A program made the translations under genes and the position numbers. This document shows positions 16,600 to 46,361 of a stretch of DNA of 64,000 nucleotides, one piece after another. The notes under the pieces are model-generated. The model did not search any database and was not told where the DNA came from. It worked only from the letters and a program-made list of their open reading frames with translations. Origin of the DNA: Actinomycetota bacterium (GTDB lineage Bacteria > Actinomycetota > Coriobacteriia > Anaerosomatales > Anaerosomataceae); contig SBEH01000004.1 in NCBI GenBank assembly GCA_009668945.1, positions 1 through 64,000 of the forward strand, written 5' to 3'. Every line of letters starts with the position of its first letter. The first letter of the stretch is position 1.

Positions 16600-17958
16600 A
16601 TGTCAGGATCGCCGGGCGGCCTACCGGTGGCGTGCGGGCCCGCTCCGTGGGACACTCGCTGCATGGTGTACGACCGCGACCTGCCCGACGGCAGATACGA
16701 ACGTCCCGCACCGCGCCCGCGGCGCAGCGAGCGCAAGCGCTCGGCGAAGCGCCAGGCGAGCGCGCCGAAGCGCGCGAAGACCCGCCCGGCTCCCCGCTCG
16801 GGCCCACCCGCCGTCTCCGGGGCGCTTCGCACTCCCAAGCCGCACCGTCGCCGCCGCGTCGGGTGCCTTGCGATCGCGGTCGCCGTCGTTCTCGTCCTGC
16901 TCGCGACCGGGCTCGCCGCAACCTCGTCGGCCGGCTTCTGCACGCGCGCTTGCCACAGCGTCCACGGCGATGACGTGGCCGCGTTCGAGCAGAGCACGCA
17001 CAGCCGCACCTCGTGTCTCACATGTCACGTCGACGCCGATTCTGGCGGGTTCGGCCGCCTCGCATTCCGCCTCGGTGAGCTCGGCGGGTACGCTCCGATG
17101 TTGTTCGGCCGCGTCAAGCAGCCTGTCAACGCCGGGAGCCAGGTGGCTCTGTCGATGCCATCCGCCCAGTGCACCCAGTGCCACGTGATGGAGGTGCGGC
17201 GCGTCACGCCGAGCGTCGGCATGGTGATCGACCACGCTGCCCACGAGTCGGCCGGCATCGTGTGCACGGCATGCCACAACCGCGTGGCGCATCCGGAGGC
17301 GAGCATCACGCTCGAGGTCAAGGGCAACGCGCCCAAAGCGGACTTCATGTCCATGACTGCCTGCTATCGCTGCCACTCGTTGGGCGAGTTCTGGGCGAGC
17401 GAGTACCGCGCGTCGGGCGAGTGCGGCGTGTGCCACACGCCAGGCTTCGACCTCATCCCGCCATCGCACGATGCCGAGGGCTGGTACACGGAGCGCGGTG
17501 AGTCCGCGGGGCACGCGAACGCGTACAAGGCCGCGCTCGAGCGGGCGCAGCTCGTGCAGGCGAGTGGAGCCGGGGGCGACGCGCTGGTGAAGGTCCCACC
17601 TGTCGCGGCGGTGAACGAGTGCTACACGTGTCATCTCGCCGCGTTCTGCACGAACTGTCACGGTACGCAGATCCCGCATCCGGACGGATTCGGGGCAGCG
17701 CACGGTCAGGAGGTCACGACCGCGGACGCCACCGGCTGCGCGAAGTGCCACAACAAGACCGGTGACAAGGCCAACGACCGGTATGCGTGCACGCTCTGCC
17801 ACCATCCAGGCTTCAATCCCGCCGAGGGAGTCTGGCGCAAGCGTCATGACGACGTGATCGTCGGCGGCGTGAGCCCGCTCGATTCCTGCTACGGGTGTCA
17901 CGAGGAGACCTACTGCTCGAGCTGCCACGTCCGTGGTGAGCCAAGCACTCCGTACTAG
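16600..17958 (+). CDS. Membrane-anchored multiheme cytochrome c, 12 heme-type motifs (module A)
   Basis: This 452-aa protein has a basic, Pro-rich cytoplasmic N-terminus (1-86), a TM anchor (87-108), and then 12 heme-type motifs: one CX3CH at 114-119 (C-T-R-A-C-H) and eleven CXXCH at 139, 191, 222, 255, 275, 341, 350, 380, 397, 430 and 439. The single N-terminal anchor with a heme cluster resembles NapC/NirT-family quinol oxidoreductases, extended by extra hemes. It probably moves electrons from the quinone pool across the outside of the membrane. The CX3CH spacing is unusual. ATG 16600 follows GGGGCGGGAG; a later ATG at 16663 lacks a good site. No c-type maturation (Ccs/Ccm) genes lie in the window. 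Confidence 0.92.
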   Translation: MSGSPGGLPVACGPAPWDTRCMVYDRDLPDGRYERPAPRPRRSERKRSAKRQASAPKRAKTRPAPRSGPPAVSGALRTPKPHRRRRVGCLAIAVAVVLVLLATGLAATSSAGFCTRACHSVHGDDVAAFEQSTHSRTSCLTCHVDADSGGFGRLAFRLGELGGYAPMLFGRVKQPVNAGSQVALSMPSAQCTQCHVMEVRRVTPSVGMVIDHAAHESAGIVCTACHNRVAHPEASITLEVKGNAPKADFMSMTACYRCHSLGEFWASEYRASGECGVCHTPGFDLIPPSHDAEGWYTERGESAGHANAYKAALERAQLVQASGAGGDALVKVPPVAAVNECYTCHLAAFCTNCHGTQIPHPDGFGAAHGQEVTTADATGCAKCHNKTGDKANDRYACTLCHHPGFNPAEGVWRKRHDDVIVGGVSPLDSCYGCHEETYCSSCHVRGEPSTPY

Positions 17959-28169: not shown

Positions 28170-29564
28170 GTGAGCGGTTCAAGTACCCGGATTCGACAGG
28201 TGCTGGCGGGCGTGTTGACGCTGATGATCGTGGCGCTCCCGGCGCAGGCGTTCGCCATAGCGGCCGACCCGGCTGCCAATGGGTCCTTCGAAGTGCAGGT
28301 AGAGCGCGACGGTGTCTGGGTCGATGCCGGTTCTCTGGCATTTGGCATGCAGTACACCACCGGCACGCTCGATCTGCCCGCCGCATGTGACAGCGTTCGC
28401 CTCCTGCCGAAGGGCGGCACGGCGGCGCACCTCGACAGCGTCGCGCTCGGCGGGAGCGCGCCAGTGGCTGTCGAGGGATCGACGGATCCGCTGGCAGTAG
28501 CCAAGCTGAAGGCTGCCGACAACGACGTCACGGGCGTGTCCGGCGCGATCGTCATCACGTTCCCGTGTGCCGCCAAGCGGCTTGAGATCAACGCCCGCAT
28601 CCAGGGCGACCTCACGTACGCGTATCCGTTCGAGTACCCCGTCGAGAACACGTTCTCGCCGGTCACCGCGGACTCGGCGTTCTACGCCTATGACACGGGT
28701 GCAGGTCCGCAGGCGATCGATACGGCGTCGGCCCCGTTCGTCTCGGCGTTCACCACACCGGGGACGGGGCATCCGGCCGGCTATACGTACGTCTGGGTCG
28801 CTGATGACGACGAGAACCTCCTCGTCACCGTCGACTTCACCCCGGACAACACGATGGACGACAACGAGGACTACGCCATCGTCCATGTGAACACCCCGTC
28901 GGGTGTGAGGGACTTGAAGATCACGGCTGGCGGCAGCCCCTGGGGCAGCGTCGAGTTCGCGTACACGGACAAGGTGACTTACCAGCACAAGGTCTACTCG
29001 TTCGTGATCCCGTGGTCCGAGATCGGCGGGAAGGCCGATGACGTCCACCTGGCGTTCACGACGTACGGCACGGCCGCGATCATGATAGGCAAGCCCGTAT
29101 TCCGCTTCTACAACGCGAAGGCCGCTACGCACTTCTACACCGCGTCGGCCGCGGAGCGCGACACGGTGATCGCGACATGGCCCGACGTATTCACCTACGA
29201 AGGCATCGCGTTCAGCGCACTCGGCGATGCCCCATTCCCTCCGGCCGAGCCGTACCGTGCCTCGCTGTATCGCTTCTTCAACATGCGGAACGGCAGCCAT
29301 TTCTACACCATCTCAGCCGAGGAAAAGGCGAGCATCGAAGCGAAGTACCCGCTCGTCTACCGGTACGAAGGTGTGGCATTCGATGTCGTCCGCCCGAACA
29401 CCGAGTATTCATTGACGCCGGTCTACCGCTTCTACAACGTGAAGAACGGCGCGCACTTCTACACCGCATCGGATGTGGAACGAGCGTCGGTGATGCTCCT
29501 GTATCCCGACACGTACCGGTTCGAGGGCATAGGGTTCGAGGTCTTCGGAGGTGCTGCGAACTAG
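28170..29564 (+). CDS. Secreted protein with three C-terminal DUF5648-type repeats
   Basis: This 464-aa protein has a signal peptide (1-32), an unrecognised beta-rich N-terminal region (33-310) and three tandem repeats of about 40-45 residues near 313-460: V-F-R-F-Y-N-A-K-A-A-T-H-F-Y-T, L-Y-R-F-F-N-M-R-N-G-S-H-F-Y-T and V-Y-R-F-Y-N-V-K-N-G-A-H-F-Y-T, each ending Y-E/F-G-I/V-A/G-F. These match the DUF5648 repeat of secreted hydrolases and surface proteins, probably a carbohydrate- or wall-binding element. GGAGGAGG precedes the GTG start at 28170; in-frame upstream sequence is not signal-like. Confidence 0.85.
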   Translation: MSGSSTRIRQVLAGVLTLMIVALPAQAFAIAADPAANGSFEVQVERDGVWVDAGSLAFGMQYTTGTLDLPAACDSVRLLPKGGTAAHLDSVALGGSAPVAVEGSTDPLAVAKLKAADNDVTGVSGAIVITFPCAAKRLEINARIQGDLTYAYPFEYPVENTFSPVTADSAFYAYDTGAGPQAIDTASAPFVSAFTTPGTGHPAGYTYVWVADDDENLLVTVDFTPDNTMDDNEDYAIVHVNTPSGVRDLKITAGGSPWGSVEFAYTDKVTYQHKVYSFVIPWSEIGGKADDVHLAFTTYGTAAIMIGKPVFRFYNAKAATHFYTASAAERDTVIATWPDVFTYEGIAFSALGDAPFPPAEPYRASLYRFFNMRNGSHFYTISAEEKASIEAKYPLVYRYEGVAFDVVRPNTEYSLTPVYRFYNVKNGAHFYTASDVERASVMLLYPDTYRFEGIGFEVFGGAAN

Positions 29565-42330: not shown

Positions 42331-43248
42331 TTACTTCTGTCCGGAGAGTGCTTTCAGTGTCATCGAGATGAGGTTCACGAACTCCGAGTAGAACCTCTCG
42401 AAGGAGCCGATCTCGTCACCGCTGCCGTCGGGCTCGAAGTGGGCATTGAAATCGCCGCCGGCGACGCGGAGTGAGATGTCCTGGATGTGTCGGGTCATGA
42501 GGGCAAGCCGCTTGAGAACCAGCAGATCGATGATCATGCCGATGGTCAACATCGCCGCGAGGAGGGTAGCGCCTACGGCACCGAGTGTCTGCATCATGCT
42601 CCGGTTGGCCGAGTCCGCCTGTGCCGAGATGTCCTCTATGGCGTAGACGACGCCCACTGCCTGGTGAGCGGGGCCGTAGATTGGAAAGACCGCGTGGCCC
42701 TTGGTAGTACGGTCGCGGCTCCAGCGAACCACCCAGTAGTCGCCTTCACCCTCCACGCCGTTGTGGCAAGTCTTGGTGCATGCGCCGACCTCGACGCCGA
42801 TGATGCGGCTGTTCTCCGGAACCTCGGTGGGCGACAGGTTGAACTGCATCTGCTCGGCCACGCCCTCATCGGTGGCGGCTAGGAGCGCGTAGGACTCGCG
42901 CTCGGGCCACACAGAGGGCTCGCCGAGTACTTCACGCGCCGCCGAGTACGTCGCCTCGTCTACAGCGGTCTTGTCCAGCAGCACGCCGTAGTCGGCATTC
43001 GTGATCGCCTTCATCGAGTCGAGGATCTTGAGCGTGCGAGCCGGATCTGCCGCCGGATCCACACCCTCGGGCCCAGCGAACTCCTCCCACGCTGCCACCC
43101 CATGGATGCCGGTTGCGGCGACCGTCGTGTCGAGCCCGCGCGAGTACGACTGGTGCAGGTAGACCACCAGGACCGCGCCTCCCAGCAAGTTCACGATCAC
43201 CACGCTTGCCAGGATCTTCGTCCGTACCGACATGTTCTTTAGCTTCAT
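42331..43248 (-). CDS. HAMP membrane protein with CX3CH heme-type motif in its sensor domain (module B)
   Basis: This 305-aa protein has TM1 (11-31), an extracytoplasmic domain (32-218), TM2 (219-242) and a HAMP domain (243-295, R-V-A-G-G-D-F ... D-E-I-G) that ends the protein with about ten residues left; no kinase, cyclase or MCP domain follows. The sensor domain contains C157-T-K-T-C161-H162, a CX3CH c-type heme motif, resembling Tll0287/DUF3365-type heme sensors. It is cotranscribed with the 1025-aa cytochrome (35-base gap). ATG 43248 reads M-K-L-K-N-M-S-V-R-T-K. Confidence 0.88.
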   Translation of the reverse strand: MKLKNMSVRTKILASVVIVNLLGGAVLVVYLHQSYSRGLDTTVAATGIHGVAAWEEFAGPEGVDPAADPARTLKILDSMKAITNADYGVLLDKTAVDEATYSAAREVLGEPSVWPERESYALLAATDEGVAEQMQFNLSPTEVPENSRIIGVEVGACTKTCHNGVEGEGDYWVVRWSRDRTTKGHAVFPIYGPAHQAVGVVYAIEDISAQADSANRSMMQTLGAVGATLLAAMLTIGMIIDLLVLKRLALMTRHIQDISLRVAGGDFNAHFEPDGSGDEIGSFERFYSEFVNLISMTLKALSGQK

Positions 43249-43283: not shown

Positions 43284-46200
43284 CTACTCCTCGTTCACGA
43301 TCCGGATACCGTCCTCACCCATGTGGTCGTTGCACGCCTGGCAACTCGGTTCGGACCAGTATGCCGCACCGGTGAGATACTGCCGTGCGGGATTCGTGGC
43401 ACTCCCGCTGCCTGCCCACAAGTAGTGGTTGTCCACCGCGCTCAGGGTCATCATGCCCATCTTGTTCCAGCTGTTGACGGGGAAGACCGGGAAGGTCCAT
43501 GCGCCGGCGCTCCACACGGCGTCGGCTTCGGTGGTGGTGCCCGCTTCGACCCAACGTCCGTCTGTGTACCCGTACCACTTCATGGTGTAGTTCTCGGGAG
43601 TACCCATGGTCAGGTTGCCGCGCGACGTTCCGAGGTGATCGGGATCGAGATAGGGTGCCTGGTCGCCGACAACGGCGTTCTCGTAGAGGCCCTGCAGCGC
43701 CGAGACGCCAGTGTTGACCAGCAGTCGCGGACGCTTCCAGCCGTGCGGGATGCCGATGTGGCAGTTCACGCACTGCGGTGAGCCGTCGGCGTTGTCCTGA
43801 TGATGGCTGGAGTGCGCTGTGTTGCTGGAGCCGACCGTCCCGGACGTGAAGGTCCCCGCTGCGCCCTGCCTCCAGGGCTGTGCCTGCGGATTCGTAGATG
43901 ACCAGGTCTGGCTGGTCGGACCTCCGCCGATGGTGATGGCGCTCAGCGGAACCATACGACCGGCGTTGTCCGTCCACACGTAGAAACCGTCGTTGCGTGT
44001 GCCGATCATGTTCAGGTACACCGGGTCGTAGGTCTCGCCGTCATGGTCGAATAGCGCGTCGCCAGAGGACCAGATCGGGAGCGGGTTGTTGACCGTGGTA
44101 CCGGACTGGTAGTTCTCCAGATCGTGGCACTTCGCGCAGATCATCGTGCTGCCGTCGGCGTACGTTGGCGTCCTGGTGAAGTCCGACCGCAGCTTGATGC
44201 CGGACGGGTACTGGTCGATCCGTTTGGTGAGCTCGCCCTTGGAGTAGTCGTCCGGGAATGCCGGATCGATGCCCCAGTTATCGTTTGCACCGTGCGGTCC
44301 GGCCGCGCGAAGGCCGGTGTGGCAGTCCTGGCAGGTGATCACCGAGGTCGAAGTCAGGCCCTTGATCGCGCCGGCGGGTGCCCCAGTCGAATCGACGCTC
44401 CAGAATACGTTGACCGTCGGGAACTCCCAGTGGGTGGTGACGACTCCGGTGTCGCCGACGGCTATCGGTCGACCGGCCCAACCGTCGGGAGCCTCAGCCC
44501 ACTGGAAGCCGGCTTCGACCTGCCAGGTGGAGGGCAACGCGGGGTTCGCTATCTCGGATTCCCATGTGAGGGTGACCCCTTGGGATCCATCGAACTTCGT
44601 CTTCGCGCCAATTGAGCCATACGTTGTCGTGTTGTGGCCGGACGCAGCCAGCCAACCTTCGCCGTTGGCGGCGATGCCGTTGACGAACCCGTGCGGCCCG
44701 TGCAAGCCCTTGTGGCAGGCGGCGCACTCCCGGTTCCCAGGCTTTGCCACGCCGTAGGTGTGACACAAGCAGCCCCGGTGCTCACCTGCTGCTACAGCGA
44801 ACACCTGGGAGCCATGACACGCGGTGCAAGCCGAACTCTTCGTCCCGGCCATGCCGGCCTCGAGCGCATCATGTGCCCCGACGTGCCGCGTGCTGTTCGA
44901 GTGGCAGTTCCGGCCCTCACGGGTGTCGGGACCGCCGCAGGTCATCTTCATGCCGGTGATGGCCCCGCCGCTCGAGTGGCACGCCGAGTTCGCGCAGCCC
45001 ACTCCGGCGTGCAGAACGCGCACGTCCGCGGTTGCATGACACCCGGACTGCACGCACGCACTCGTCGAGGGCGTGCCCGTATCGTCGAGCTGAACCGCGG
45101 TATGGACCGCGTCGGCGTCCTCGTGCTTCGAGTCATGACAGGTTGCACAGGCGTCGGCGCCGAGGCGATCCGGCCAGGAGTCTCGAACCGCCCGTATCGT
45201 GTTCTCGTTCTTGTTGTGGCACTCCACGCAGGCGTCCGCCCCGAGGCCGACGTGCGCGCGGGTGTGCTCGGCAGTCAGGTCCATCCGGTGGCACGAGGCG
45301 CACGTGATGCGAACGCCGGAGACCGCGTCTGCCCACTCGGTCGAGCCCTGCACCGATGCCGTGTGCACCTTGGAGTCGTTCTTGTGGCTGTAGTCGTCGT
45401 TGACGTAGGCCGGGTGGCAGCTTCCCTCACCCGTGGCGCACGCGGTCACGGTCGGCTCGTGTGACTGCAGCTCGAGGTCGTGGCACCCGGGCTCGCCCTC
45501 GGCAGCGGCGCCGGAGCATGTTGCGGGGACGTCGGGATGAAGCGCGTGCAGGTCGTTCACCCCGTGACATCCCTCGCCGGTGCTGCCACAGCCGGACTCC
45601 CCTGTTGCCTCGAAGACCGTTGCGATGTCAATCGCATGCATGGGCGAGCGGGTCTTCTCTCCGTGGCAGTCTTCGCAGCGGTGCTTCTTCCACTTGGCCT
45701 GCACCTGCTTGAGAGCGCCGGACTGCTCGTCGTTGTGGCACTCGTAGCATCCGATCTCGGTGCCGTAGTCGCTGCCCTCGACCTCGGGCACGCCGGTGTG
45801 GGCAGCTTGCAGGTCGCGCGCGTGGCAGTCTTTGCACGCAGCCTTGGCCTCTCCACCGGGCGCGGCTAGCATGACCTGCTTCATGTCCGTGCCGATCGCC
45901 TCGTGCAGCGATCCCCTGTAATGGCCCTTGGGATACGGGTCGATGAGTCGCACGCAGTCCGACGCGCCCTCCATGCTGCCGTCGTGGCAGCCCGTGCATT
46001 CGCGCTGGGATGGGCCGTGGCAGGGGATGCAGCCGACCCCCGTGTACTCGTGGCAGATGTTGCACTCTGTATCGGGGTGGTAGCGATTGAAGTCCTGGTA
46101 CCGCTCGTCGCTGCCGTGGCAGCCATCGCCGGAGTTGGTGCAGCCGGACTCGCGCCGGGCGCTATAGTCGCTGGCCTCGCTGAATGAGTGGACGGTGGTC

Positions 46201-46361
46201 GTCGGCGGGTTCCAGCCCGCGGCGAATCCGAGTCCCGCGACAATGAAGGCTGCGATCAGGAGCGGGGTTCTCCGCGCCTTCACCCAGGCCTTCCAGGATC
46301 GATCCGGGTTGTCGGAACCATGCGGTTTGACCCGCAGATCCTCGTAGAGGTCAGCGCCCAT
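43284..46361 (-). CDS. Large membrane-anchored multiheme cytochrome c, 14 CXXCH (module B)
   Basis: This 1025-aa protein has an N-terminal TM anchor (32-49) and a large exported part. Canonical CXXCH occurs 14 times: residues 100, 111, 122, 176, 205, 229, 354, 378, 405, 512, 546, 677, 742 and 864. Eight further Cys-His pairs have other spacings: CX6CH (74, 258, 308), CX10CH (282, 475), CX4CH (436, 456) and CXCH (531). Several recur as G-C-x-x-S/T-G-x-G-C-H-G. Residues 560-1025 are heme-poor and beta-rich, perhaps a surface-binding domain, ending C-Q-A-C-N. It probably conducts electrons away from the membrane to an external acceptor. GGGGG lies 7 bases before ATG 46361. Confidence 0.92.
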   Translation of the reverse strand: MGADLYEDLRVKPHGSDNPDRSWKAWVKARRTPLLIAAFIVAGLGFAAGWNPPTTTVHSFSEASDYSARRESGCTNSGDGCHGSDERYQDFNRYHPDTECNICHEYTGVGCIPCHGPSQRECTGCHDGSMEGASDCVRLIDPYPKGHYRGSLHEAIGTDMKQVMLAAPGGEAKAACKDCHARDLQAAHTGVPEVEGSDYGTEIGCYECHNDEQSGALKQVQAKWKKHRCEDCHGEKTRSPMHAIDIATVFEATGESGCGSTGEGCHGVNDLHALHPDVPATCSGAAAEGEPGCHDLELQSHEPTVTACATGEGSCHPAYVNDDYSHKNDSKVHTASVQGSTEWADAVSGVRITCASCHRMDLTAEHTRAHVGLGADACVECHNKNENTIRAVRDSWPDRLGADACATCHDSKHEDADAVHTAVQLDDTGTPSTSACVQSGCHATADVRVLHAGVGCANSACHSSGGAITGMKMTCGGPDTREGRNCHSNSTRHVGAHDALEAGMAGTKSSACTACHGSQVFAVAAGEHRGCLCHTYGVAKPGNRECAACHKGLHGPHGFVNGIAANGEGWLAASGHNTTTYGSIGAKTKFDGSQGVTLTWESEIANPALPSTWQVEAGFQWAEAPDGWAGRPIAVGDTGVVTTHWEFPTVNVFWSVDSTGAPAGAIKGLTSTSVITCQDCHTGLRAAGPHGANDNWGIDPAFPDDYSKGELTKRIDQYPSGIKLRSDFTRTPTYADGSTMICAKCHDLENYQSGTTVNNPLPIWSSGDALFDHDGETYDPVYLNMIGTRNDGFYVWTDNAGRMVPLSAITIGGGPTSQTWSSTNPQAQPWRQGAAGTFTSGTVGSSNTAHSSHHQDNADGSPQCVNCHIGIPHGWKRPRLLVNTGVSALQGLYENAVVGDQAPYLDPDHLGTSRGNLTMGTPENYTMKWYGYTDGRWVEAGTTTEADAVWSAGAWTFPVFPVNSWNKMGMMTLSAVDNHYLWAGSGSATNPARQYLTGAAYWSEPSCQACNDHMGEDGIRIVNEE

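Follow-up and report, generated by a model that had tools for sequence, protein, structure and literature searches.

Does a cytochrome in which Cys-His pairs of unusual spacing stand among ordinary heme motifs hold heme at all of them, or only at the ordinary ones? The question is raised by a 1025-aa protein encoded in a 64-kb window (the whole stretch of DNA analysed, 64,000 nucleotides), which lies on contig 5 of a host genome of 1.92 Mb that is 99% complete. From our comparisons with related proteins we conclude that the atypical sites are very probably heme c sites, in which case the protein would carry 22 hemes rather than 14.

Cysteines and histidines of the 1025-residue protein

The open reading frame starts with ATG and has no internal stops; its features are collected in Table 1. 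A motif count over the whole protein gave 47 Cys and 22 CH dipeptides, the latter corresponding to 14 CXXCH, three CX6CH, two CX10CH, two CX4CH and one CXCH. From site 1 to site 22, the spacing to the nearest upstream Cys is 6,2,2,2,2,2,2,6,10,6,2,2,2,4,4,10,2,1,2,2,2,2. This recount agrees exactly with the tally of an earlier sequence-only reading of the window (14 CXXCH and eight atypical sites), and the spacing pattern is kept in relatives. The sites take up 44 of the 47 Cys, leaving C136, C1007 and C1010. Shuffling the protein yielded a mean of 2.6 CH and a maximum of nine (2000 shuffles), versus the 22 observed. Likewise, all eight non-CXXCH CH have a spare Cys within ten residues upstream, compared with 0.9 on average and at most five in 20,000 shuffles. 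Neither the number of CH nor that of the spare upstream Cys is due to chance.

With its 14 CXXCH, the protein has the several canonical motifs that characterize multiheme c-type cytochromes. Basic residues precede the hydrophobic stretch near the N-terminus, which could direct export and is probably a membrane anchor that would remain uncleaved.

Table 1. Position of the cytochrome gene, its modules and selected sites, and the downstream membrane protein gene
Feature	Position	Strand	Basis or remarks
Multiheme cytochrome c, 1025 aa, apparently fused, 22 CXnCH sites	43284..46361	-	ORF and motif count
Probable signal anchor, hydrophobic, aa 32-52, TPLLIAAFIVAGLGFAAGWNP	46206..46268	-	Most hydrophobic stretch; conserved in family
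N-terminal module, aa 27-490, sites 1-16	44892..46283	-	47-63% identical to orthologous domains
Site 1, CX6CH (CTNSGDGCH)	46116..46142	-	Invariant in 16 proteins
Six-site module, aa 254-432, sites 8-13, spacing 6,10,6,2,2,2	45066..45602	-	Module alignment
Site 8, CX6CH (CGSTGEGCH)	45564..45590	-	Invariant
Site 9, CX10CH (CSGAAAEGEPGCH)	45480..45518	-	CX4CH or CXXCH at homologous position of other modules
Site 10, CX6CH (CATGEGSCH)	45414..45440	-	Spacers 4-8 in homologs
Site 14, CX4CH (CVQSGCH)	45036..45056	-	Motif count and relatives
Site 15, CX4CH (CANSACH)	44976..44996	-	Motif count and relatives
Site 16, CX10CH (CGGPDTREGRNCH)	44901..44939	-	Spacers 8-10 in 4,4,9 arrays of relatives
C-terminal module, aa 492-1025, sites 17-22 (2,1,2, then three CXXCH) and terminal CXXC	43287..44888	-	
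Site 18, CXCH (CLCH)	44760..44771	-	CXCH in 8/8 aligned proteins
CQACNDH (C1007, C1010), conserved Cys pair without adjacent CH	43323..43343	-	Alignment
Membrane protein downstream, two hydrophobic stretches, periplasmic CX3CH (CTKTCH), weak HAMP match	42331..43248	-	

Conservation of the atypical sites

Residues ~1-490 match a family of membrane-anchored cytochromes, here called the N-family. A search of 60 related genomes placed it in 16 genomes that represent 11 families of a single order; with looser matches included, 18 genomes among 398 of the class have it, every one of them in the same order. The ordered spacing 6,2,2,2,2,2,2,6,10,(5-7),2,2,2 is identical in the 16 genomes, and is followed by triads such as 4,4,9 or by further modules. 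In this 13-site N-domain, comprising four atypical sites and nine CXXCH, every motif Cys and His is invariant across the 16 proteins. The domain also has exactly 13 conserved His columns outside the motifs, 12 of them at 100% and one at 94%. We conclude that these extra His would provide one distal ligand per site, the atypical ones included; this bis-His arrangement holds by count, the His being matched to the sites in number and not mapped to pairs.

A regression of extra His on site types over whole proteins was confounded by protein length, and we therefore relied on counts per domain and on arrays composed entirely of atypical sites. Relatives with long 4,4,9 arrays have 9 to 18 sites in succession without any CXXCH, and about one extra His per site: sites and other His amount to 18/19 in L037, 15/15 in L036, 9/10 in L041, 13/16 in L045 and 18/21 in L038.

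The six-site module allowed a wider comparison. Across 60 aligned modules, with a mean column identity of 28%, the only invariant columns are Cys and His, including those of the CX6CH and of the third site, and six His columns outside the motifs exceed an occupancy of 70% (72-100% of the modules), against six sites. We also tallied motifs by position in 74 modules selected by their motif pattern. Positions 1 to 3 were occupied, respectively, by CX3-7CH, CX2/4/5/6/10/13CH and CX4-8CH, and positions 4-6 by CXXCH; position 2 was CXXCH in 23 modules, CX4CH in 24 and CX10CH in 17. At homologous positions, CX6CH, CX10CH, CX4CH and CX5-8CH thus swap with plain CXXCH, with the proviso that the alignments lean in part on the Cys and His themselves, and the exchange could be overread at weakly similar modules. 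For instance, a paralog of 1550 aa in the same genome (contig 11; L115, 4801-9450) has 44 CH sites, mostly CXXCH and arranged in six-site modules, one of which is spaced 2,2,2,2,2,2 (HMM E = 3e-10) and another 4,2,4,2,2,2. The other cytochromes of the host genome were sampled by pattern and profile, so their counts are not exhaustive; among them, the window contains a further multiheme cytochrome at 17014-17928 (+), with eleven matches to the CXXCH pattern in less than 1 kb.

Six-site modules also build giant relatives (L067-L072), which are 2650-4305 aa long and have 67-108 CXnCH sites. The largest (L067, 5678-18592), whose reading frame is still open where the contig stops, has 108 sites in 4305 aa, followed by proteins with 80 sites in 2937 aa (L068, 4181-12991) and 79 sites in 2819 aa (L069, 8025-16481). 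A sample of 396 genomes across the phylum contained the module in no further genome.

Structure prediction with AlphaFold2 gave no usable model of the N-domain (16 alignment rows; pLDDT 34). For the six-site module (60 rows), the pLDDT was 67, and near 50 in the atypical half, and the model had no meaningful fold match in Foldseek or VIA-align. The solved relatives retrieved in profile searches align mainly to the CXXCH half of the modules, and the match to Cytochrome_C7 (PF14522) reached 21.7 bits, below the curated Pfam cut-off of 24.8.

Together, the sequence comparisons show that the atypical CXnCH motifs (n = 1, 4, 6, 10) are conserved ligand sites, and that those of the N-domain match, by homology, canonical CXXCH positions of related modules, with one conserved extra His each. 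That canonical and stretched motifs share one place in one architecture is our main argument that the stretched ones would hold heme. The invariant Cys and His, the one extra His per site and the exchange with CXXCH lend good support to the proposal of the sequence-only reading that the atypical pairs are functional; from the roles that it offered, extra hemes are retained, and disulfides and metal sites are not.

In the arrangement that we favour, each atypical site would have a heme c bound by thioether bonds to both Cys, with the His after the second Cys as the proximal ligand and the extra conserved His as the distal one; the residues between the two Cys would loop out, like the 14-residue loop of heme 1 in OmcZ. 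It is unlikely that heme is attached through the second Cys only, the first being free or otherwise bonded and the spacing unconstrained. Such attachment would account for the free variation of n and make CXCH easier to understand, and a single-Cys motif has been suggested elsewhere, AX2CH beside the membrane helix of CymA (PMC6295460); however, the atypical sites of the N-domain never lack the first Cys, and orphan Cys are scarce (92 of 2616), as expected if both Cys are used.

We consider it quite unlikely that heme is confined to the 14 CXXCH, and that the atypical CXnC pairs are structural disulfides bracing the polypeptide between hemes. Spacings of 4-10 fit disulfide loops, the spacers are Gly-rich in many cases, and heme at such sites has been seen in no structure. 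Nevertheless, a disulfide would render superfluous the His after the second Cys, which is invariant at all atypical sites of the N-domain; the numbers of distal His track total sites, not CXXCH; stretches of ~470 aa with 18 sites would stay empty in relatives; and the replacement of atypical motifs by CXXCH at homologous positions would have to be accounted for. The terminal pair C1007/C1010, the one conserved Cys pair not followed by CH, offers a contrast within the protein: it does resemble a disulfide and is likely to be one, and its sequence context varies, as that of a disulfide may. Finally, it is scarcely credible that the Cys-Cys-His sets bind Zn or Fe-S: adding one more His to C-x(n)-C-H could give a C2H2 site, but such sets and CXXCH heme sites replace each other in the same modules, the protein has an N-terminal anchor and is exported, and there were no matches to metal-binding families.

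Origin of the gene, its neighbours and heme attachment

The remainder of the protein (residues ~492-1025) corresponds to the final part of another family of cytochromes, here called the C-family, found for example in a genome of the same genus (G001). Judging by both matches, an N-family cytochrome was fused to the C-terminal portion of a C-family one to give this gene. Gene order supports this: the genes on either side are arranged as at the N-family loci of G005, G015 and G010, which contain a DEAD-box helicase, a CX3CH/HAMP-like membrane gene, the cytochrome and rlmKL. The C-family locus of G001 comprises an H+-PPase, the cytochrome, a second cytochrome-like gene, a further gene, ResB, CcsA and dnaG; contig 11 of the host keeps the PPase, ResB, CcsA and dnaG of such a locus, without the cytochrome. 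Since the surroundings are those of an N-family locus on each side, we judged that the fusion is unlikely to be an assembly chimera. Elsewhere in the window, 29049-29537 (+) encodes a stretch sharing 45% identity with the N-terminal part (a DUF5648 match) of the C-family cytochrome in G001. C-family cytochromes are also followed at several loci (L039, 7683-8324; L053, 2799-3446; and others) by a small protein with a few Cys-His motifs, one copy of which weakly matches C_GCAxxG_C_C redox proteins.

The last ~460 residues are heme-poor, as had been noticed in the sequence-only reading, but with three CXXCH, at 677, 742 and 864, they are not free of heme sites; rather than as the binding domain that it proposed, they are better described as a conserved three-CXXCH domain, pieces of which (CXXCH...GPHG and CXXCH...PHGWKRPRLL) recur in many large cytochromes of the order. 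The CXCH of the C-terminal module, though conserved in the C-family, appears to be the weakest and least certain heme site, and we know of no precedent for such a heme motif.

A CX3CH/HAMP-like membrane gene lies near the N-family cytochrome in the five relatives checked, and the copy downstream of the 1025-aa cytochrome gene possibly encodes a monoheme partner or a sensor. In two relatives, a CX3CH cytochrome is encoded close to the N-family cytochrome (L042, 13413-14798; L040, 657-2102). The one tested, from L042, is NapC/NirT-like, and both are candidate quinol oxidases; ImcH quinol oxidases typically have CX3CH beside the membrane (PMC6295460). The anchor, the conserved CX3CH membrane partner and the nearby CX3CH cytochrome would fit an outward transfer of electrons from the membrane. 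Electrons would leave the membrane perhaps via the CX3CH membrane protein encoded alongside, or via a quinol oxidase, and the hemes would form a wire leading to an acceptor outside the cell, for example Fe(III); an obligate Fe(III) reducer is among the cultured Anaerosomatales (PMC9686372). In all, the protein is likely a membrane-anchored multiheme c cytochrome of the envelope, originated by fusion and acting as an electron wire with 22 (at least 14) bis-His hemes.

Heme would be attached outside the membrane by System II (ResB/CcsA), for which the host genome has three ResB and five CcsA-domain matches, with ResB sets on contigs 11, 13 and 32. A dedicated lyase beside the 1025-aa cytochrome gene was ruled out, as the ResB sets are all on other contigs. 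Of 16 C-family or giant cytochromes, 12 have ResB no more than ~3 kb away (distances from gene tables), namely the C-family cytochromes of G001, G002, G007, G012, G019, G021 and G059 and the giant ones of G039, G042, G048, G049 and G056. It is absent within that distance at G055, G028, contig C59 of G056 and L068, and at all N-family genes examined. This proximity is far above chance, because these genomes have two to three ResB per 2 Mb, and is unspecific to atypical motifs, because a cytochrome with 33 CXXCH on host contig 32 also adjoins ResB/CcsA. The ResB on contig 11 is 53% identical to its G001 counterpart; only this identity and the synteny were used, the ResB tree being weakly resolved and its G042 row apparently in the wrong frame. 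Dedicated synthases are known for CX15CH and CXXCK (PMC6976685, PMC10663686), and one for the atypical motifs is only suggested in this genome, where the search for unusual lyases proposed in the sequence-only reading led to the three System II sets.

Should heme indeed be bound at the atypical sites, the motifs accepted by cytochrome c synthases are far looser than those of the textbook, and the natural swaps of CXXCH, CX4CH and CX10CH at one module position are a ready experiment on what the synthase reads. The broader proposal has about an even chance of being right: that the order has a cytochrome family with relaxed Cys spacing (n = 1, 3-10), up to ~108 hemes per polypeptide, a third or more of them non-canonical, and System II synthases that are not limited to CXXCH and also take variable loops. 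To count hemes in genomes, CXXCH is searched for, sometimes CX2-5CH (PMC12545173); in this family, up to two thirds of the sites escape a search for CXXCH (only 10 of 32 are CXXCH in L037), and such sites are routinely overlooked.

Comparison with known systems

CX6CH and CX10CH had been described as not standard, in agreement with the open-access papers searched, where CX5CH, CX6CH, CX8CH and CX10CH are unmentioned and the single match to CX9CH is unrelated. Stretched heme motifs are known from OmcZ, the octaheme nanowire of Geobacter sulfurreducens, whose heme 1 motif has a 14-residue loop between the Cys (PMC9473688) and has been named CX14CH (PMC11208441). OmcZ is likewise a multiheme c-type cytochrome, but it has one atypical site in eight, whereas here there are eight in 22, with several spacings and in repeating modules; no OmcZ chain was named among the profile matches to the PDB. 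The sulfite reductases MccA/SirA also carry a c heme on a stretched motif, CX15CH (also CX12NKGCH), with its own lyase in Wolinella (PMC6976685, PMC10663686). Unlike the 1025-aa cytochrome, they are catalytic enzymes with one special site and a dedicated synthase, and we saw no homology. A synthase gene in the same cluster, as with MccA, is found beside the C-family and giant relatives, and not beside the 1025-aa cytochrome gene.

Compared by description only, the large multiheme cytochromes of ANME archaea, with up to 86 motifs (PMC9012536), resemble the relatives found here as very large envelope cytochromes proposed to carry electrons outwards, and have been described in terms of S-layer domains and CxxCH motifs. 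Matches to MtrC/MtrF/OcwA-type and cytochrome c7 domains (PF22113, PF14522) fall on the CXXCH halves of the modules, and the atypical half has no counterpart in the alignments displayed. The host shares its class, and probably its order, with Anaerosoma and Parvivirga (Anaerosomatales), whose genomes each have 17-18 multihemes; these have been tied to Fe(III) reduction in a paper that does not mention heme-binding motifs or CXXCH (PMC9686372), and the wealth of multiheme cytochromes in the host agrees with this. Single atypical heme motifs were thus already known, and a cytochrome family built on them is a new variation.
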